This document shows positions 4,738-21,508 of a stretch of 24,363 nt of DNA, piece after piece. A program made the position numbers and the translations under genes. The notes under the pieces were generated by a model. The model did not search any database and had not been told where the DNA came from. It was given only the letters and a program-made list of their open reading frames with translations. Positions within the stretch are counted from its first letter, which is position 1. Every line of letters starts with the position of its first letter. The stretch comes from a virus. The stretch covers positions 1-24,363 of the IMG/VR virus record IMGVR_UViG_3300025598_000173. One strand, given 5' to 3'.

Positions 4738-6172
4738 CTGGACTTACTCCAAAATGGTCAATAAAGTTTTGTCTGGATTTAGGATTTGATTTAGCTCTAT
4801 CTTTATCTGCTTGGGTAGGCACGGGTTGTTCTAAATATTGACCAAATGATTTTCTAATTGCTGATGTATCAACTTGTTTTTCTTTAGGTAATGTAGCGTT
4901 TGCATTATCAAGTCTTTCTAATAATGCGTTCCACTTTCTACGTTTAGTGCTTTCCGGTTCACTGTCTAGCGGCATTTGAGCAACAACTGCTCTTACTTTG
5001 GTATCAGATAATTGTCCACGACCACCAGTTTGTGCAGAGGCAATATCATACGCAGTATTCAATAAAACAGCATCAATACCTTGTAAATCTTTATCTATGG
5101 TTTGCGTTGTTGCGTAACGTAAAATATCAGCACTTAGGTCGCCCTTAAATGAATTAGCAAAAGCAAAAGACCCTCCCGGTAATGACTTATTACGTTTAGC
5201 ATCATCACCTAAAGTTGATAAATTGAATTTAGCGTTCAGCACGTCTTGTTGCAATACACCTTGAGCCGTAGCTGCTGTTCCACCACCTTTTCCAGCAGAG
5301 CTACCAAATTTTGTAGCACCAGCAAGTTTAGGGTCAACTTCACGTATGTCGCTAGGGTCTTTCGTATTTACAGCATAGACTTTGCCATCTTTTTCTACAT
5401 ATTGATAAGATGTTGTTGTTCTTGCCGCTTTAGATTCCGCATTTGCTTTTTGTTTTTCTTTAAATTCTAATAAAGACAACATACTTTTATTTGCTTCCGC
5501 AGCACCAGTAATAACACTTTTTACACTACCAATAGCATCCAATTTTTTTAAATATGGATTTTCAGCCAAAAGTACTGCATATTCATCTTTTGCCATCTCA
5601 CGGTTTGTTGTAAAGTCTTTTGCTATTTTTTCTATACGTTTTTGCAAAGCATTGTTTTTTTGTTCCATAACTTTGATGTTTTCATCGAAAGTAATTTTTT
5701 CTTGATTGAATTTTTCTTTTTCACCTTTTTTCCAGCCATCCATCATTCCGGTCATTGATGACAATGCGTTCATTCCAGCATTGCGACCACCACCGCCAAG
5801 CATTGTTCCTACAATTCCGACAAGACTAAAAATAGTAGCCATATCTTGTAAGTTGGTTTGTGTTGGATGAAACTCAGGATATTCCCAATTTTGCTGCTCT
5901 TCTAATTTTTTGGTTTTTTCTGAAGTATCTTCATATTCTTTTTTTTGTTTTGCTAAGTAAGCATCACTTTGTGCTTTTTGATAATCAGCAGCCTGTCCTT
6001 TAGAGTAGACTTCTTCTAAAGCCTTATTTTTTTGAGCATCTAAAATATTTTTAGATTGTTGCAAGTACAACTTTTCTGAAACACCTTTTGTTGGGTCAAT
6101 ATTAGCTAAATTGTTAATAGAGGAACCTAACTCTGTGCCTAAAGCTCCTGTAAGTGCAGACATATCAGCCAT
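4730..6172 (-). CDS. Probable internal virion protein with hydrophobic segment, 480 residues
   Basis: An N-terminal helical region rich in Lys, Glu and Gln (30-95) is followed by a hydrophobic, Gly-rich stretch (about 109-145). Within it, GIVGTMLGGGG precedes a Met-rich run ending GMMDGWKKGEKEKFNQ. A second coiled-coil-like region follows (150-250). The C-terminal third contains a more globular part (about 310-445). This mix of amphipathic helices and a potentially membrane-active segment, between two other large proteins of the same style, fits an ejected internal protein. I see no catalytic motif. The ATG overlaps the upstream stop as TAATG. Function is inferred from position and composition. 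Confidence 0.65.
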   Translation of the reverse strand: MADMSALTGALGTELGSSINNLANIDPTKGVSEKLYLQQSKNILDAQKNKALEEVYSKGQAADYQKAQSDAYLAKQKKEYEDTSEKTKKLEEQQNWEYPEFHPTQTNLQDMATIFSLVGIVGTMLGGGGRNAGMNALSSMTGMMDGWKKGEKEKFNQEKITFDENIKVMEQKNNALQKRIEKIAKDFTTNREMAKDEYAVLLAENPYLKKLDAIGSVKSVITGAAEANKSMLSLLEFKEKQKANAESKAARTTTSYQYVEKDGKVYAVNTKDPSDIREVDPKLAGATKFGSSAGKGGGTAATAQGVLQQDVLNAKFNLSTLGDDAKRNKSLPGGSFAFANSFKGDLSADILRYATTQTIDKDLQGIDAVLLNTAYDIASAQTGGRGQLSDTKVRAVVAQMPLDSEPESTKRRKWNALLERLDNANATLPKEKQVDTSAIRKSFGQYLEQPVPTQADKDRAKSNPKSRQNFIDHFGVSPDE

Positions 6173-7215
6173 TATCCACCTACCTTTGTTTGATTAATGT
6201 ATGTAGGACTGCCGGCTACTAAATTAGCCAAACTTGAATAAAATGATTTGTTTGCAGCATTTAATTGCTGGTCTAATTGCAACTGTGTATTAATAGCACC
6301 AAGAGAAATATTGTCACCAATCTGCATCACTTGTAATCCGTATTGATATTGGTTTTGCAATAAATTAGCTGTTAATGAACTAATCTGGTTTTCAATTTGT
6401 TGTTGACCAACACCACCCATATTTGCAGACGCTTGAGCAAGTCTAGCACGTTGTTGTTGTATAACCTGTTGATTAGCTGGAGTTAATTCACCACGTTGAG
6501 CAGCACCCACTAATTGCTGACCCTGTTGTTGATATGGTGCAGCTAACGCTTGTTTTTGTGCTACAGCTGCATCATTACCAGCTTGTGCTTGTCTATTTTG
6601 TATTGCGTTGTATATTCCTAAACCTCCAGTAAGCCCTAATTTACCGAGCATTTCAGGAGTCTGTAATTTTTGTAATGCTTGATTAATAAAATTAGATTGG
6701 TCTAATTTAGTACCTTGACTAAGGGATGCCATAGCTCCCGGAACGTCAGTGGGAGGAGGATTTTGTGCTTGAAAAGTTGCTAAATCTGTAGGTGTTGGTC
6801 TAGTACCAGCTTGAATATCAGCAGCAGAAAATGCAGGTGCAGGACTTGTAGATGGCACAGGAAAGTTTAATTCAGGTGCTTGTCCAGCTTGACTCGTAGG
6901 TGCGCCCTCACCGTATCCCGGTGTAGCAGCAATATTAGGAGATACATCTTGTGTACTTGGTTGTTCTATAGCCGGTGCTTGTGTTACTGGCGCATCACCC
7001 AAAGATGGGACATTACCAATATTGTAATCACCCTCGTTTTCAAACTCCACTAAACCGGTGTCAGGATTAATGCTGCCACGACCACCTCTAGCTTTTAATA
7101 ATGCAGCTTCTTTAGGGGTAATGTGTGCAAGAACGGTGTCTTTACCTCGACCTTTAGATTGTAGTATTTTTGCTAGTGATGATAGGTCGGTGCCTAGTGC
7201 TTTTGATAGTGCCAT
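6172..7215 (-). CDS. Probable virion protein with conserved-looking N-terminal motif
   Basis: This 347-residue protein has three parts. Residues 20-58 contain the pattern GRGKDTVLAHITPKEAALLK, then GGRGSINPDTGLVEF, a compact motif I recall from many phage structural genes without a known function. Residues 60-160 are Pro/Ala/Thr/Ser-rich and probably disordered. Residues 165-340 are Gln/Ala/Asn-rich and helical, with a short hydrophobic GKLGLTGGLGIYNAI segment (191-205). It is joined to both neighbours by TAATG overlaps. This suggests co-production with the modular protein upstream and the internal proteins downstream. An internal or tail-associated role is likely but unproven. Confidence 0.65.
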   Translation of the reverse strand: MALSKALGTDLSSLAKILQSKGRGKDTVLAHITPKEAALLKARGGRGSINPDTGLVEFENEGDYNIGNVPSLGDAPVTQAPAIEQPSTQDVSPNIAATPGYGEGAPTSQAGQAPELNFPVPSTSPAPAFSAADIQAGTRPTPTDLATFQAQNPPPTDVPGAMASLSQGTKLDQSNFINQALQKLQTPEMLGKLGLTGGLGIYNAIQNRQAQAGNDAAVAQKQALAAPYQQQGQQLVGAAQRGELTPANQQVIQQQRARLAQASANMGGVGQQQIENQISSLTANLLQNQYQYGLQVMQIGDNISLGAINTQLQLDQQLNAANKSFYSSLANLVAGSPTYINQTKVGG

Positions 7216-8606
7216 TATACAATCCCCAATGCTGATTTCAAAGATTCAGTATTCCAAACATTTCTTCTCTTACCTTGTTCACCATCTAAAATAGGAGAAC
7301 CACCAACTAAAGATGTGTCGGGTTGCGTAGTACCTAATGCTTGCCCTAACAATGCTGCCGATGATGAACCGGGTGTTTTAGATGTGCTTGTGCTTTTAGA
7401 TGGTACTACACTTGGTGATAGAAGTGAAACAGTATTATTGCTTGACGATACATTATCTTTGCTTGCCGTAACTGTTGTATTTGCCGCATTGTCTTTTGTT
7501 GCATCAATAGTAATCTCTCCAACATCTTTAATTGCTGGGGCAGTCACATCAATAGTACCTACGTCTTTTATTTTGGGCGCAGTCACATCAATAGTACCCA
7601 CGTCCGTCATTGGAATAGTTGTTGGATTAATCAAATTTAATATAGGTTTATTTTTATCTGCTGTAACAGTAATTTCACCTACGTCTGTTGCATTAGGTGG
7701 AACATTTACATTTGATGGCGGTGTTATTGGAGCAACATTTACGGGTGGAACAATTGGCTGGGGTGTTGGAACAGTAGGGCTAATTAAATTAAGTATTGGT
7801 TGGTCTTTATTTGCTGTAACCGTTATTTCTCCAACGTCTTTTGTATTTGTTGGAATGGTTGTATCAACAGGAGGTGTTGTAGGAGTTTCAGGAGCTGTAG
7901 GAACAGTAGGTGTATCAATTGGAGCTACAGGTGCTGTAGGTGTTTCAGGAACCGTAGGAACAGTAGGTGTTGTAGGGGTTGTCGGTGTATCAGGGGTTGT
8001 AGGTGCAGTTGGGGTTGTATCAGTAGGGGTTGTAGGTGTTGTAGTTGCATTTTTTGCTAAACTTCCACCTAATTGTGAAGCAGCACCAGTAAGAATAGAT
8101 GCCGGAACATCTCCGCCCGACAACGCAGCAGCAGTGCCGCTTCCGGCAGCGCCACCAATAACATTACCAACCGTACCACCAATATTTGTTCCTAACGCAG
8201 AACCTAATGCTCCACCTGCTGCACCAGCACCAATATTACCGCCTGACAATGCAGGAGCAACAGCACCTTTAGCCGCTCCTCCAACAACAGAAGCACCAGT
8301 TTGTCCAATATCGGGAACAGCAGCATTTGCAGCAGTACTAATTTCAGAACCAACTGCACCTGAAACGGCTCCCACTCCAGCAGCTTTTAATATATCCGAT
8401 GGACTACCTCCAGCAACTGCATCACTTATTGCATTACTACCGGCACCAATTGCAGCAGAACCTACTGCAGCAGTAGTCGCAGCAGTTGCATCTGCAACAC
8501 CGGCAGCATCTAATATGGCGGAACCAATTTCAGGAATAAGCTCCGGAGCAACTATTGCTACCGCAACAGCAACCACGGTTTCAATAGCTTTAGCTGCTTG
8601 TCCCAT
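7215..8606 (-). CDS. Modular low-complexity virion protein (glycine-zipper, PT linker, DVGEI repeats)
   Basis: This 463-residue protein has three zones. Residues 1-185 are Gly/Ala/Val-rich, with many small-xxx-small spacings (GGAAKGAV, GGALGSALG, GGTVGNVIGG) typical of glycine-zipper membrane-inserting or tightly packed helices. Residues 188-255 are an almost pure Pro-Thr linker. Residues 257-370 contain five copies of a DVG(E/T)I(T/D)VTA motif. The C-terminal 90 residues are Ser/Thr-rich and end KRRNVWNTESLKSALGIV. No catalytic motif is visible. Its position before three probable ejection proteins suggests a minor virion protein that may act on the host envelope; this is inference. It is joined to both neighbours by TAATG overlaps. 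The repeat composition leaves a long open antisense frame that I do not consider a gene. Confidence 0.65.
   Translation of the reverse strand: MGQAAKAIETVVAVAVAIVAPELIPEIGSAILDAAGVADATAATTAAVGSAAIGAGSNAISDAVAGGSPSDILKAAGVGAVSGAVGSEISTAANAAVPDIGQTGASVVGGAAKGAVAPALSGGNIGAGAAGGALGSALGTNIGGTVGNVIGGAAGSGTAAALSGGDVPASILTGAASQLGGSLAKNATTTPTTPTDTTPTAPTTPDTPTTPTTPTVPTVPETPTAPVAPIDTPTVPTAPETPTTPPVDTTIPTNTKDVGEITVTANKDQPILNLISPTVPTPQPIVPPVNVAPITPPSNVNVPPNATDVGEITVTADKNKPILNLINPTTIPMTDVGTIDVTAPKIKDVGTIDVTAPAIKDVGEITIDATKDNAANTTVTASKDNVSSSNNTVSLLSPSVVPSKSTSTSKTPGSSSAALLGQALGTTQPDTSLVGGSPILDGEQGKRRNVWNTESLKSALGIV
7494..7838 (-). repeat. Five DVG(E/T)I(T/D)VTA-type protein repeats
   Basis: Within the 463-residue protein the motif DVGEITVTANK recurs with variation at residues 257, 308, 335, 348 and 361. 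The first two copies are followed by related PILNLI(S/N)PT segments, so a unit of about 51 residues is duplicated. The last three copies are spaced only 13 residues apart. The short beta-prone repeats suggest stacked strands or a binding array. Confidence 0.75.
7842..8045 (-). repeat. Pro-Thr-rich low-complexity linker
   Basis: Codons 188-255 of the 463-residue gene encode an almost uninterrupted series of TP, PTTP, PTVP and PTAPE steps, giving visibly repetitive DNA. Such segments act as stiff extended spacers. Length variation between relatives by slippage is expected. Confidence 0.8.
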
Positions 8607-16712: not shown

Positions 16713-17723
16713 TTAAATGTTGAGTGAGTTATAGCCAGTCACCTTGGTCATAGACTTAGGTTTAGTGCTTACCAATTCGGCAATCATTAAAACCGCACCT
16801 ACATAACCAATCTGCCAGTTAGGAAGAGTAGACTCAAATCCTGTGAACACAAAAGAACCTTGGTCATGGATATATAGACTGAGGTAGTTTGAGTTCAAAA
16901 AGTACATTGTACCTTCTGGGCAGTATGGGTCTGGATAAATTGGAACACCAGCAACCATTAACGCTCTGAAAGCAGCTTGAGGACCATTCGAGTCGCTATC
17001 AAATCCGTTACCCGGAGTAATGACGTACTGTTCTTGACCTACGTAATCTTGTGCTAAGAGTGTCCATGTACCAAATCCGCATACACCAAATGTCGGTACT
17101 TCTGCACCGTTTTTGACTGTGCCAGAAATATACTGGAGTACGTTTTGCCGTGTTGGGTTGACGTTACCAGCAGCGTATTGCTTAGACTTCCACCATGTAT
17201 AGGTATTACGGTTGATGTTACCGTAAGTCGCTGTACCAGTACCATCATCTACCGCAGCAGGTAAACCAATAAATTGTTGTGTATTGGTTGTGTTGTTGTA
17301 CAAGGCAGTTGCCATTGCATCCATCATCACGTTAGTCGCATCATTCATACGAGCTTCAATGAGAGGGATAATTGCATGGTCTTGCTGTACAGCACCTTCC
17401 ATACCGAGAAACGGTACAGGTGCAATCATTAATTTCAAATTAAATTCAGCATTGTAAGCACCTTGTTGTACTGACGGCTGGTTAAAAGAACCAGAATAGT
17501 CAGACCACTGTGCATTTACAAACTGTGAACCCTGAACGGGTACGGTTACTTGGGACACACCACCGGTGGCTTGTTGACTATTTGCAATCAAAGCTGCCAT
17601 CAGGGGAGTGCTGTTATAAAGCTGGACAACCAATTTAGGAATAAAAGCACGTCTTGTAACGTAAGTTAATTCCGTATATTGCGAGGTACCAGCTGCAGGT
17701 AAAATACCGCCACCTATAGCCAT
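16713..17723 (-). CDS. Major capsid protein
   Basis: This 336-residue protein has the features expected of an HK97-fold shell protein. An N-terminal arm leads to RRAFIPKLVVQLYNSTPLMA (24-43), then a beta region VTVPVQGSQFVNAQWSDYSG. A long helix-like segment follows with EGAVQQDHAIIPLIEARMND and MMDAMATALYNN. The C-terminal part has ALMVAGVPIYPDPYCPEGTM and NWQIGYVGAVLMIAELVSTKP. The length is typical of this class. It has a strong AGGAG ribosome site six bases before ATG and follows the scaffold-like gene. No maturation protease is visible nearby. Capsid identity is well supported by order, length and pattern, although no fold search was possible. Confidence 0.88.
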   Translation of the reverse strand: MAIGGGILPAAGTSQYTELTYVTRRAFIPKLVVQLYNSTPLMAALIANSQQATGGVSQVTVPVQGSQFVNAQWSDYSGSFNQPSVQQGAYNAEFNLKLMIAPVPFLGMEGAVQQDHAIIPLIEARMNDATNVMMDAMATALYNNTTNTQQFIGLPAAVDDGTGTATYGNINRNTYTWWKSKQYAAGNVNPTRQNVLQYISGTVKNGAEVPTFGVCGFGTWTLLAQDYVGQEQYVITPGNGFDSDSNGPQAAFRALMVAGVPIYPDPYCPEGTMYFLNSNYLSLYIHDQGSFVFTGFESTLPNWQIGYVGAVLMIAELVSTKPKSMTKVTGYNSLNI

Positions 17724-18343: not shown

Positions 18344-18784
18344 TTAAATATTCCAAGTTGCATTACGTTTAATATAGCCAATATTTGCATGACTCACATT
18401 AAACATTGCACCTAATTTACGATGCGATAAATCAGAATTACGAATAAACTTAATCTGCTCTTCGTTTAATTTAGATTTCCCACACTTTTCACCTCTTGCA
18501 GAACGTTCTTTATTAACCATATCTTGTGAATTTTCTTTGTGTGTTGCAACCCATAAATGGGCTGGATTAACACATAATTTATTATCACAAATATGAGCAA
18601 TAACTTTACCTTCTGGAATTTTACCTACAAACGCTTCATAAGATGTTCTATGTGCTGACTTTGTTTTGTATTCTTCTGAACCACAAAGACCATAGCCAAC
18701 TTTAGAAACAGCACCATTCCATATCCAGCAACCATTTTCAGTTGCTTGATTAGAATGTTTTAAGATGCGTTCTTGGTCTTTCAC
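18344..18784 (-). CDS. HNH homing endonuclease, free-standing
   Basis: This 146-residue protein has an N-terminal GCWIWNGAVSKVGYG (18-32) and SAHRTSYEAFVGKIPEGK (43-60). The catalytic core HICDNKLCVNPAHL (64-77) contains His64, Cys66, Cys71, Asn73 and His76. This is the zinc-finger HNH pattern with the conserved NPxHL. A C-terminal helix-turn-helix (about 105-145, LNEEQIKFIR, HRKLGAMFNVSHANIGYIKR) is the usual DNA-recognition module of phage HNH enzymes. It would cut DNA at or near its insertion site and spread itself. The start is GTG at 18782-18784, overlapping the previous TAG as TAGTG, with only a weak A-rich ribosome site. It sits among head genes, and neither flanking gene is visibly interrupted. 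Confidence 0.9.
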   Translation of the reverse strand: MKDQERILKHSNQATENGCWIWNGAVSKVGYGLCGSEEYKTKSAHRTSYEAFVGKIPEGKVIAHICDNKLCVNPAHLWVATHKENSQDMVNKERSARGEKCGKSKLNEEQIKFIRNSDLSHRKLGAMFNVSHANIGYIKRNATWNI

Positions 18785-18980: not shown

Positions 18981-19463
18981 TTACATTGGTTGTGGACCTG
19001 CACCACCCGGAGGAGGAGCAGTTGGAACTGGTGGTGGAGGCATACCGCCTCCGGCTGGACCTGCCATTGGCGGAGTACCCATCGCATCAGGTCCTACACC
19101 TTTTGGTAGGGATTGTAACATCTGTAATATTTCAGATTGTTGCAATTCGTTTGTTTTGCCTTTACGTTGACCAATTACACCGGTAAGCGCACGTATAGCA
19201 GCTAATGCTTTTTGACCTTCCTCGGATTCGGACCCAAGGCTAGGTAACGATTGTTCAATTAAGTCCATCGCCATTGACAAATTAATCATTGCACCTTCTT
19301 TAGAACCCATCTTTGGTTCAGGTGTAGACATGGGTGCAGCCATTGGTGGTGTGCCTGTATCCGACATATTGTCAGTCGGCATCGGACTTGGAATAGGTGC
19401 AGGAGTCGCAGGTTTTTTACCTCTGCTCATTAACTCCATCAATTTGTCTTGGGATGCAGCCAT
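18981..19463 (-). CDS. Pro/Met/Gly-rich head-region protein, 160 residues
   Basis: The N-terminal part (1-55) is Pro/Met/Thr/Ala-rich, and the C-terminal part (120-160) is almost only Pro, Gly, Met and Ala. Between them lies a helical core, AMINLSMAMDLIEQSLPSLG (58-77), then a Glu/Lys-rich helix and LQQSEILQMLQSLP. This plan of a disordered-helical-disordered chain suits a scaffold-associated or portal-interacting protein. I do not recognise a named family. The ribosome site AGGA lies seven bases before ATG. It is the first gene after the structured non-coding stretch and candidate promoter. Confidence 0.7.
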   Translation of the reverse strand: MAASQDKLMELMSRGKKPATPAPIPSPMPTDNMSDTGTPPMAAPMSTPEPKMGSKEGAMINLSMAMDLIEQSLPSLGSESEEGQKALAAIRALTGVIGQRKGKTNELQQSEILQMLQSLPKGVGPDAMGTPPMAGPAGGGMPPPPVPTAPPPGGAGPQPM

Positions 19464-19488: not shown

Positions 19489-19517
19489 AAGATTAAACCT
19501 TTCTATCAGTTTGTCAA
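19489..19517 (-). promoter_or_regulatory. Candidate promoter upstream of scaffold/capsid genes
   Basis: The minus strand reads a perfect TTGACA (19512-19517). Seventeen bases further the hexamer is AATCTT (19489-19494), only three of six matches to a -10 box. The hexamer lies in non-coding DNA just before a head gene. The strong -35 and weak -10 make this a low-confidence call. Confidence 0.25.
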
Positions 19518-19538
19518 GTGGGGGATATATTTCTATTC

Positions 19539-19554
19539 CCTCCCCCATGGGAGG
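19539..19554 (-). other. GC-rich hairpin, six base pairs
   Basis: On the transcript, CCTCCC pairs perfectly with GGGAGG around a four-base ATGG loop (positions 19539-19544 with 19549-19554). No uridine run follows, so it is not a standard intrinsic terminator. RNA processing, pausing or message stabilisation are alternatives. Confidence 0.5.
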
Positions 19555-19573: not shown

Positions 19574-19588
19574 AATTCCAGAGGAATT
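19574..19588 (-). other. Perfect hairpin starting in the minigene stop codon
   Basis: AATTCC pairs with GGAATT around a three-base loop. On the transcript the 5' arm begins inside the TAA of the 12-codon minigene, so a ribosome finishing that gene would cover and melt it. The stem is AT-rich and its stability modest. Confidence 0.45.
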
Positions 19589-19625
19589 ACTTACGTGACT
19601 TACGACCTTTACGAGCTTTACGCAT
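19587..19625 (-). CDS. Minigene for a 12-residue Arg-Lys-X repeat peptide
   Basis: The frame reads MRKARKGRKSRK then TAA: three full Arg-Lys-X units (RKA, RKG, RKS) and a final Arg-Lys, with eight basic residues out of twelve. It has an AAAGGAG ribosome site six bases before the ATG at 19623-19625, as good as any in this window. A second ATG two codons earlier directly abuts the site and is less likely. The DNA shows a matching nine-base period (CGTAAAGCT, CGTAAAGGT, CGTAAGTCA, CGTAAGTAA). A basic peptide among head genes could neutralise packaged DNA, as the small J protein does in microviruses. It might instead be a regulatory leader peptide. Both roles are inference. Confidence 0.6.
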   Translation of the reverse strand: MRKARKGRKSRK

Positions 19626-19657
19626 CTTCATCTCCTTTAAGAGGCAGCGACCTATTT

Positions 19658-19685
19658 AGGGCAAGGAAGCCACAGCCCTTTCCTT
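19658..19685 (-). other. Two mutually exclusive hairpins before the minigene
   Basis: On the transcript AAGGAA (19680-19685) can pair with TTCCTT (19663-19668). AGGGC (19675-19679) can pair with GCCCT (19658-19662). The two pairings interlock with no linker bases and cannot easily form together. They precede the minigene ribosome site. A chance origin cannot be excluded. Confidence 0.3.
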
Positions 19686-19702
19686 CTCACGGGAAACTTG
19701 TA

Positions 19703-19867
19703 CTACCCCCGACCATATTCTCTTGCAGGGCGCCCACCCATCGGACGTCCAGATGTTCTAATACTTGTATTTTTGTATTGTAAATTCGGACCCATATTTT
19801 TATCAAGACTACCTGCCGATACTCTCGGTTGGTCTGCTCTTGGTTGTACGTTTCCTTTAGTTGCCAT
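19703..19867 (-). CDS. Small basic protein directly after portal, 54 residues
   Basis: The ATG at 19865-19867 directly follows the portal TAA. A GAAGG ribosome site lies eight bases upstream, inside the last portal codons. The product begins MATKGNVQPRADQPRVSAGS and ends GRPMGGRPAREYGRG. It is Arg/Gly/Pro-rich, basic and without a hydrophobic core. Perfect ribosome site, tight abutment and in-operon position support a real gene despite its small size. No family is recognised. A portal-associated, head-assembly or nucleic-acid-binding role would fit the composition. Confidence 0.72.
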   Translation of the reverse strand: MATKGNVQPRADQPRVSAGSLDKNMGPNLQYKNTSIRTSGRPMGGRPAREYGRG

Positions 19868-21508
19868 TTACATTACCTTCAATTCCGGTTTACTTTTTTC
19901 TTTAGGAGCAGGTTGCTTACTTTCTTTAGCGCTCTGTTGTTTTTCTTCCAAAGTTTTCAAGCGTTCTTTGAGTAATTGTTTCATTGGTGGCTCTAGTAAG
20001 TCAAGCAAAGATTCTTTATCAATTGCTTGTGCTTTAAATAAACTAAATGCCAAGTTACGCATATCCTCCATAAAGATAGGAGAGTTACTATGTGCATCGA
20101 CTTTGACTGCATAATCTCTTGTAAATTGTTCGGCAATAAACGGCATATTCTGCTTATCATTTTCTGTCTTGAAGTGTGTGTTGTCGTACACCGCCATGAG
20201 CTTTAAATATAAAGTAGCTACTTTTTCCAAACTATCTTCAACAATTAAAGCACGTTTTTTTGCTCTTGAGCTACCAAGTCTTGCAAGTTGTGAGGCATGA
20301 CCTGTACTACGTACACCGGACTCGCCCTTACCTGCTAAGACGTTTGTGATTCCAGATACTTCTTCAAACATTGCATCAATTCTATCTAACTCACTAAACA
20401 AGTCTGCCGGCATTTGTGGTGCTAATTTATCGACTTTAGCGTTAGGCATATCACTTGATAAGAAAGAACCGGCACGGTTAAGCGCAAAGTTCTTTTCATC
20501 CATGATGCCGGAAAAACCACTAATCATCATTGGAGGATTCACTTGTTTGGCAAGGAGTTGTGTTATCTCACTAAAGCGTTTGTTACGTGCTTCTTGCAAC
20601 AATATCATGCGTTGTACTTCACTCTGTCCCCAGTAATAATCATACTGAGGATTAGGACATATTTGTACAAAAGGTAACTCACCCTTGAGGAATACTTTTT
20701 CACCGGGTCTATCATAAATAATGACATCTGGATTGGCACAAGTGACGACTTGATAATCACAGGTTTCATCATTCCAGAGCCACAACTCTTTCATCTCAAT
20801 AGTATCTTCAGCAACTTTAGCCTTGTACTTGTTGTACTGACCAAGGTTCATGTTGACGTTACCAACCATGTTGACTTGAGATTGAGAAAGAATAACGCTG
20901 AGTCCATCCGGTACTTCATTGTGAATTTGTTGTGCATAGGATGCGTTGACTCTGTTGACTATCTGTTCTCTTTTTGGATGGTCGTAGAGTCTTGCATACA
21001 ACTCTGACTTAGTGATGTAGTAGGTATGGACCAATGCTTCTTGTCTAGAAGTGTACGGGACATCTTCTCGCAAAACCCCGATACTGCTTGGCTCAATCAT
21101 AAAGGGTTGAATCCCTTTGTTGTAGATGAGCTTAATAAAGGTAGTGTTGTAGACCAATGCCCATGTGAGGGCGGTAGAAAAGACTTGGTCAGCGTTGGAA
21201 TTTAACCACTCATCATTTAATGCTTGTGTGAGCTTTGGTACTTTAAATTGTTCTCGGTCATCAACAGAGGCACCAAGATTAATACTAAACCGTGTCGTTT
21301 CAGATGAGTAGAGGAAAGAGGTAAGCTGGTCAATGTGTGGATGAATCTTGTTAAAGACGGCAGGAGATTCTTCCTCTGAGTTACCAAACAAATAATAGGA
21401 GCGCAAGTTTGAGTAGTCGGTTCTACGTTCATCACTTGAGACTTGACACTTGCGTATCAGGTCTTTGTAGAAAAACTCCCGGTCATCTGGGTTTGGTGGA
21501 ATTATCAT
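19868..21508 (-). CDS. Portal protein
   Basis: This 546-residue protein follows the plan of podovirus portals. An N-terminal helical region has SYYLFGNSEEESPAVFNKIH (37-56) and HIDQLTSFLYSSE. A wing-like mixed region follows, then LPFVQICPNPQYDYYWGQSE (278-297) leading into VQRMILLQEARNKRFSEI, the hallmark segment before the clip and stem helices. Next comes FEEVSGITNVLAGKGESGVR (381-400) with STGHASQLARLGSSRAKK, and a C-terminal Lys/Glu/Gln-rich tail. Twelve copies form the channel through which the terminase pumps DNA. It overlaps the zinc-ribbon gene as ATGA and abuts the 54-residue gene. Confidence 0.88.
   Translation of the reverse strand: MIIPPNPDDREFFYKDLIRKCQVSSDERRTDYSNLRSYYLFGNSEEESPAVFNKIHPHIDQLTSFLYSSETTRFSINLGASVDDREQFKVPKLTQALNDEWLNSNADQVFSTALTWALVYNTTFIKLIYNKGIQPFMIEPSSIGVLREDVPYTSRQEALVHTYYITKSELYARLYDHPKREQIVNRVNASYAQQIHNEVPDGLSVILSQSQVNMVGNVNMNLGQYNKYKAKVAEDTIEMKELWLWNDETCDYQVVTCANPDVIIYDRPGEKVFLKGELPFVQICPNPQYDYYWGQSEVQRMILLQEARNKRFSEITQLLAKQVNPPMMISGFSGIMDEKNFALNRAGSFLSSDMPNAKVDKLAPQMPADLFSELDRIDAMFEEVSGITNVLAGKGESGVRSTGHASQLARLGSSRAKKRALIVEDSLEKVATLYLKLMAVYDNTHFKTENDKQNMPFIAEQFTRDYAVKVDAHSNSPIFMEDMRNLAFSLFKAQAIDKESLLDLLEPPMKQLLKERLKTLEEKQQSAKESKQPAPKEKSKPELKVM

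Follow-up and report, generated by a model that had tools for sequence, protein, structure and literature searches.

Conserved microgenes for polybasic peptides, usually preceded by an RNA pseudoknot, in the head-gene region of uncultured tailed phages

The stretch of DNA analysed here in its full length of 24,363 nucleotides, hereafter the window, is the IMG/VR virus record IMGVR_UViG_3300025598_000173, which encodes the terminase, the portal and the major head (capsid) protein (MCP) of a tailed phage according to matches of the Pfam and PHROG type. Between its portal and head genes, the minus strand carries a gene of twelve codons, termed mu2, for the strongly basic peptide MRKARKGRKSRK. Comparison with relatives shows that the reading frame is under selection at the protein level, that its codon use is that of a well-expressed gene, and that an H-type RNA pseudoknot, genuine as a structure and linked to the microgene, lies upstream. 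The function proposed for this association, that of an abundant polybasic peptide which would bind nucleic acids during head assembly or genome packaging, its translation being tuned by the pseudoknot, is considered to have about an even chance of being correct.

A family of polybasic microgenes

The microgene and its ribosome site occupy the following positions:

19587..19625, minus strand: microgene mu2, MRKARKGRKSRK, twelve codons followed by TAA; conserved in relatives, under purifying selection and absent from shuffled sequences
19632..19638, minus strand: Shine-Dalgarno sequence (SD) AAAGGAG, the first G of GGAG located 10 nt 5' of the ATG

Read from 19625 to 19587, mu2 consists of the codons ATG CGT AAA GCT CGT AAA GGT CGT AAG TCA CGT AAG TAA. 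The first-pass annotation had proposed exactly this frame, with an AAAGGAG site at good spacing, a 9-nt period in the DNA mirrored by a 3-residue period in the protein, and a location between the 54-residue gene linked to the portal and the scaffold and capsid genes, and all of these proved correct, the immediate downstream neighbour being the 160-residue gene that precedes the scaffold and capsid genes. It had also expected such a frame to be missed by annotation, which is true for both GenBank relatives examined, MW202753 (L081) and MW202825 (L082), where the microgenes lie antisense within the annotated hypothetical proteins UOF81572, UOF81573 and UOF82412 (minus-strand proteins covering 4740-5038 in L081 and 4644-4904 in L082); these are probably spurious annotations of the wrong strand. 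A second in-frame ATG, at 19629-19631, overlaps the ribosome site and makes an improbable start codon. Considering both strands of the window, mu2 is the sole open reading frame of 9-16 codons that combines an ATG, an SD-like site and a Lys plus Arg content of at least 50%; the paralogue mu1, found in most relatives, is absent.

Relatives were collected as 80 IMG/VR loci retrieved with the portal of the window and 80 further rows retrieved with the portal of MW202825. At least one Lys/Arg-rich microgene occurs in the gap of 139 of the 140 loci holding both the portal end and the 160-residue gene, with one copy in 30 loci, two in 105 and three in 4; in the lone exception, L071, ATA replaces ATG. 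Depending on their position and sequence, the copies belong to the mu1 type, MYKKxKRGRKTRR, located shortly 3' of the 54-residue gene and in most relatives between this gene and the pseudoknot, to the mu2 type, MARKxRKGRKARK or MRKARKGRKSRK, located farther along the gap, or, in some loci, to a third copy of the MVRKTRKGRKSCK type. The GGAG-to-ATG distance is 10-12 nt in 227 of the 242 loci of relatives with GGAG counted. In the comparison with relatives, which the first-pass annotation had named as the check on its proposal, the reading frame with its ATG, its ribosome site and its basic pattern is retained, with synonymous change. The observation is thereby confirmed and was even understated, the tandem paralogues, the upstream pseudoknot and a second hairpin having been overlooked; of the overall interpretation, a conserved and unannotated basic minigene in the head region stands, and the leader or attenuator function discussed below is disfavoured.

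Several kinds of comparison bear on the coding nature of these frames. The ratio of nonsynonymous to synonymous change (pN/pS) amounts to 0.36 for mu1 (13 residues, 43 distinct sequences), 0.46 for mu2 of 12 residues and 0.41 for mu2 of 13 residues, and variation is concentrated at third codon positions, where the entropy exceeds that of positions 1 and 2 by a factor of about 1.6-2. In the 62 kb of gap from 139 relatives, 145 microgenes combine at least 60% Lys plus Arg with an SD-like site, versus 1 in 1.99 Mb elsewhere, and none of 2,780 Markov-shuffled gaps contains one, counts which take related sequences as separate and therefore describe a pattern rather than exact probabilities. A chance open reading frame was rejected on these figures. 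The codons CGT and CGC account for 89% of the Arg codons of the microgenes, versus 59% in the portal gene, 73% in the 160-residue gene and 78% in the MCP gene. No runs of rare or regulatory codons occur, and classical attenuation was rejected, common Arg and Lys codons having been advanced against it already in the first-pass annotation.

The 191 distinct peptides contain 62.6% Lys plus Arg and have a median charge of +8, the remaining residues being mainly Gly, Ala, Ser, Thr and Tyr, whereas Asp or Glu occurs in just two; hydrophobic residues are nearly absent and the C-termini read RK or RR. The deep lineages conserve composition over sequence, e.g., MARHKRRHKRK, MARRMRRHKRK and MARRSRRAKRASKK. 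Family members range from 8 to 24 codons, mostly 12-14. Longer microgene-like forms were also encountered, such as MMYGKAKMARMGRKARKGRK in L429, an extended start of this form in L411 and the GTG-started MGMPGKVRGARKPRRAKRY in L492, and L515 harbours two basic frames of 20-24 codons 3' of its microgene. Searches of Pfam and PHROG with the three longest variants (20-24 residues) gave no match at E values up to 10, the 12-mers being too short for such a search.

Three distant portals, 28%, 37% and 48% identical to that of the window, were used alone as queries, because selection on the microgene itself had to be avoided, and microgenes were found in every locus with sufficient flank, down to a portal identity of about 28%. 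In this survey, L496, L516 and L517 were excluded from assessment, their sequences ending too early, and MIATFERRHKGRKGRK and MITTFERRHKGRKGRK from the L320 group, which escaped the regular-expression rule, were identified by eye. Upon clustering of the portals at 82% identity, all of the 56 clusters possess a microgene except L014, which has 157 nt of flank; since some of these clusters had been retrieved via microgene or pseudoknot patterns, it is the portal-only sets that carry weight. When 2.9 M viral contigs were scanned independently with a pattern, the in-frame matches among those listed were nearly all located beside homologous portal or 160-residue genes, down to 26% portal identity, and the microgene is likely absent from other phage groups. 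A scan of the GTDB genomes for the microgene pattern gave three real matches (L177, L248 and L271), the others looking like chance, and identified no host; the three carry the phage portal and are probably stray phage contigs in metagenome-assembled genomes. The phage group is large, uncultured and apparently common, and its mostly freshwater origin is an impression gained from a few named sources and the type of collection rather than a count.

The pseudoknot and the other RNA signals

The structures and signals surrounding mu2 are the following:

19646..19679, minus strand: H-type RNA pseudoknot, recognised from covariation and linkage to the microgene; a single copy in the window
19679..19696, minus strand: short hairpin TTTCC...GGAAA, found by inspection, directly 5' of the pseudoknot; GNRA loop in many relatives
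19574..19588, minus strand: stop-codon hairpin AATTCC-TCT-GGAATT, overlapping the microgene stop
19519..19547, minus strand: hairpin TGGGGGA-GGGAATAGAAATATA-TCCCCCA with an A-rich loop of 15 nt, conserved in relatives
19490..19517, minus strand: candidate promoter of the 160-residue gene, TTGACA (19512-19517), 16 nt, TAATCT (19490-19495)

The pseudoknot is generally laid out between mu1 and mu2 as a G-rich S1a, T(A/G)T, a GGCTGCTT-like S2a, CCC, a short loop and a AAGTGGCC-like S2b. In the window, stem S1 pairs AGGGC with GCCCT (19675-19679 with 19658-19662) and stem S2 pairs its 5' arm (19664-19671) with its 3' arm (19646-19653); six of the eight S2 pairs are standard and the two central ones are mismatched, so that the register of S2 is less certain in this variant and an alternative is possible. 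Over 86 non-redundant sequences, standard pairs fill 88.4% of the cells, versus 79.4% with the 3' letters shuffled and 46-66% with the arms slid, the covariation score reaches 0.307 versus 0.130 upon shuffling (0 of 500), and changes affect both sides in 10 of the 12 pairs. These values derive from a MAFFT alignment, and an anchored recount agrees with them. Tandem G-U wobble pairs occur in most S2 stems. Even in distant loci pairing is kept with different letters, e.g., GAAG/CTTC with GTGGCTGAT/GTTGGCCGC in L507 and CGG/CCG with GGCTGCTCG/CGGGTGGCC in L515.

The linkage to the microgene is apparent from a scan of IMG/VR with the pseudoknot pattern alone, in which, for the loci examined among the matches listed, 112 of 116 matches lead into a microgene, the other four corresponding to two contig ends, the start of a longer microgene (L411) and an unrelated phage matched by chance (L413). 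The distance from the 3' end of the pseudoknot to the ATG is 19-24 nt in nearly all loci, and in most lineages the last microgene copy has a dedicated pseudoknot 5' of it. When mapped onto a portal tree of 54 rows, the pseudoknot is near-universal with scattered absences outside a deep group of four (L308, L320, L501 and L502), in which the microgene lies ahead of the Pro-rich gene, divergent from the portal, without a recognisable pseudoknot; these labels combine a score (null 95% at 24) with inspection and may therefore be wrong in individual cases. In the same four loci the portal resides on the opposite strand, the microgene is the first gene of the operon that contains the Pro-rich gene, and the gene order around the head module is inverted. 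Rfam searches with the window region and six relatives returned noise only, neither the pseudoknot nor the hairpins having a match at gathering score.

The hairpin over the stop codon, already pointed out in the first-pass annotation, is indeed present and conserved: a score of at least 12 is attained in 88% of 97 loci versus 27% of shuffles, GNRA loops are common, and the stem letters vary while the pairing stays. The hairpin with the A-rich loop (11-15 nt) attains a score of at least 15 in 71% versus 24% of shuffles, and its arms co-vary, e.g., TGGCAGTT/AACTGCCA and TGAAGGGC/GCCCTTCA; in some relatives it is followed by a terminator-like run of T. No intrinsic terminator was found within the window. 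Directly 3' of this hairpin, the TTGACA box, retained in most relatives, probably starts the transcription of the 160-residue gene; the consensus scan missed this candidate promoter because of its weak -10 box. In L116, L122, L027 and their relatives, the TTGACA promoter 5' of the 160-residue gene overlaps a palindrome, e.g., GTTTGTAAGTGGTTACAAAC, which looks like the operator of a phage regulator. By consensus matching only, the L298/L505 group exhibits a promoter-like TTGACA or TTGACG directly 5' of the pseudoknot, and in the L298/L505/L507 group the microgene is followed by a terminator-like hairpin and by another gene; in the L298/L505 group such signals would give a mini-transcript of roughly 150 nt. 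The gene that follows the microgene differs in L298, L302, L505 and L507.

With several conserved structures gathered within less than 200 nt, one might regard a regulatory or packaging RNA as the conserved entity and the reading frame as incidental. The distribution of changes over the codon positions, the pN/pS values well below 1, the conservation of both SD and start, and the occurrence of microgenes without a pseudoknot make this extremely improbable, and conservation of the RNA alone was rejected in view of the protein-level selection and of the lineages possessing the microgene without a pseudoknot.

The conserved stop-codon hairpin also invites the view, put forward in the first-pass annotation, that the microgene is a leader whose translation, or stalling on basic residues, switches this hairpin and thereby controls the 160-residue, scaffold and capsid genes. 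Polybasic nascent chains can slow ribosomes. In the distant L335, just 6 nt separate the microgene stop from the next start, and a leader function is possible for single lineages of this kind. Like attenuator leader peptides, the microgene is a very short reading frame that has an SD to itself and a hairpin at the stop codon, but differs from them by its optimal codons, its two or three tandem copies, the protein-level selection on its composition and a downstream gene that is not fixed either in identity or in distance, as exemplified by the terminator-like hairpin and different gene of the L298/L505/L507 group. In addition, the TTGACA promoter usually intervenes between the microgene and the 160-residue gene. 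Leader control or attenuation is disfavoured because downstream genes vary, copies are tandem and codons are optimal, and is accordingly held to be quite unlikely.

Gene setting and neighbouring genes

Upstream of the microgene, the window encodes in order the terminase, the portal (SU10/P22-like in Pfam) and the 54-residue protein; downstream follow the Pro-rich 160-residue protein, a 61-residue protein, an HNH endonuclease, the putative scaffold and the major head protein. The two immediate neighbours are:

19703..19867, minus strand: basic protein of 54 residues, immediately 3' of the portal gene
18981..19463, minus strand: Pro-rich protein of 160 residues, the next gene 3' of the microgene; predicted three-helix core, mean pLDDT 67.8

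For the 160-residue protein, Pfam and PHROG searches gave no match, and a structure search with its low-confidence three-helix core gave no useful fold match. The HNH_3 homing-endonuclease gene (18344-18784, minus strand, Pfam E 1.6e-15), located between the 61-residue and scaffold genes, has no counterpart at this position in MW202753 and MW202825 (intervals 5731 to 5752 and 5630 to 5646, respectively). The MCP (16713-17723) is about 90% identical to that of the GenBank relatives and the portal (19868-21508) just about 70%, a contrast that suggests a strong constraint on the capsid gene, or its exchange. Farther away, at 7215-8606 on the minus strand, a protein of 463 residues that contains Thr-Pro repeats along with a recurring VGEITVTADKNKPILNLI-like unit displays a low-complexity architecture resembling that of virion proteins.

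The constant position beside the portal, scaffold and capsid genes would also suit a detached basic segment that binds the coat or scaffold protein and aids prohead assembly rather than binding DNA. The peptides offer hardly any hydrophobic residues for a defined protein interface, however, and no scaffold fusion stood out among the loci read, fusions not having been searched for; a role of this kind is regarded as very unlikely.

A proposed nucleic-acid-binding function

The composition, the copy number, the strong SD, the codon bias and the head-gene setting are the reasons for proposing an abundant nucleic-acid-binding role. Tandem microgenes, each provided with a strong ribosome site, would deliver the peptide in quantity late in infection; the peptide would bind nucleic acid by charge, in a protamine-like or J-like manner, and, once bound, may help to neutralise, condense or package the DNA or contribute to the organisation of the prohead. 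Non-specific binding to nucleic acids is to be expected of any 12-mer of charge +8 as a matter of physics, and is no proof of a role. The pseudoknot, located just 5' of the landing site of the 30S subunit, in all likelihood adjusts translation or the stability of the mRNA. It might also be an operator through which the peptide represses its own production, in the manner of T4 gene 32. Since it leaves the SD uncovered, an enhancer, a stabiliser or an autogenous operator fits better than an on/off switch acting by occlusion.

Two known systems appear as the nearest precedents, in neither of which membership is claimed. In phiX174, about 120 copies of the J protein coat the DNA, and J guides the genome within the capsid (PMC13386984). 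The microgene products resemble microvirus J by their very small size, their strongly basic, protamine-like composition and their location among structural genes, a likeness that implies no homology, and J would be the closest analogue of a tiny basic packaging protein. J attaches to the inside of the capsid by a hydrophobic C-terminal part, which the microgene peptides, ending in RK or RR, lack. They also measure about 12 residues, occur as tandem paralogues, usually with a pseudoknot, and belong to tailed double-stranded DNA phages with terminase and portal, not to a single-stranded DNA microvirus with a T=1 jelly-roll capsid. The other precedent, T4 gp32, would be the closest analogue among phage proteins that bind nucleic acids and have a pseudoknot operator: its mRNA carries a 5' pseudoknot operator, followed by a less structured stretch of more than 40 nt of UUAAA repeats that holds the ribosome site (PMC535899). 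Both systems share an H-type pseudoknot 5' of the SD and a nucleic-acid-binding product, presumed in the case of the microgene. Here, in contrast, 19-24 nt separate the pseudoknot from the start codon in most loci, the microgene leaders read contain no UUAAA repeats, and the product is a 12-mer instead of a single-stranded DNA-binding protein.

The reading of the peptide as a J-like condenser of DNA fits its composition, tandem copies and codon bias. In its most specific form, in which protamine-like 12-mers from tandem microgenes, which would be among the smallest conserved protein genes, would condense the DNA as packaged or at the packaging stage, their dosage being set by a pseudoknot that they bind themselves, it remains a doubtful proposal. 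Three points weigh against the proposed nucleic-acid-binding role: the Arg/Lys order of the main lineage is kept more strictly than charge alone demands; more remote phages whose capsid proteins are related (Mx8, Mx9, BUCT555 and others) have no microgene, which is thus no general requirement of the Mx8-type capsid; and all members are uncultured.

The specific Arg-Lys order also accords with a peptide acting chiefly as an RNA-binding regulator, comparable to the arginine-rich motifs of lambda N or lentiviral Tat, which would act on the pseudoknot or hairpins and control translation, mRNA decay or the transcription of head genes. Conserved structured RNAs on both sides of the microgene, the near-exclusive linkage between pseudoknot and microgene, and the tandem G-U wobbles of most S2 stems point in the same direction, and the peptides match the RNA-binding segment of such proteins in size and charge, with a structured RNA beside the gene. 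Unlike these proteins, however, the microgene product consists of the motif alone and varies in sequence across many lineages, the copies diverging strongly from one lineage to another; L308, L320, L501, L502 and scattered others have the microgene without a recognisable pseudoknot, and the codon bias suggests amounts exceeding the needs of a regulator. Such a regulator is judged unlikely.

Among phages, both small basic proteins and leader pseudoknots are known kinds; what is new in these tailed phages is that the two occur together, along with the size of the genes and their tandem arrangement. No description of polybasic minigenes of tailed phages or of a microgene pseudoknot was found in the open-access literature, prior description elsewhere being possible, and neither the peptides nor the RNA fall into any family of Pfam, PHROG or Rfam. 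These phages offer strongly supported protein-coding genes of about twelve codons, with paralogues, that are invisible to gene finders, and add a conserved phage mRNA pseudoknot absent from Rfam. Should the peptides bind the pseudoknot, they would form with it a minimal natural peptide-RNA control pair. Should they condense DNA, tailed phages would possess an encoded counter-ion system like that of microvirus J.
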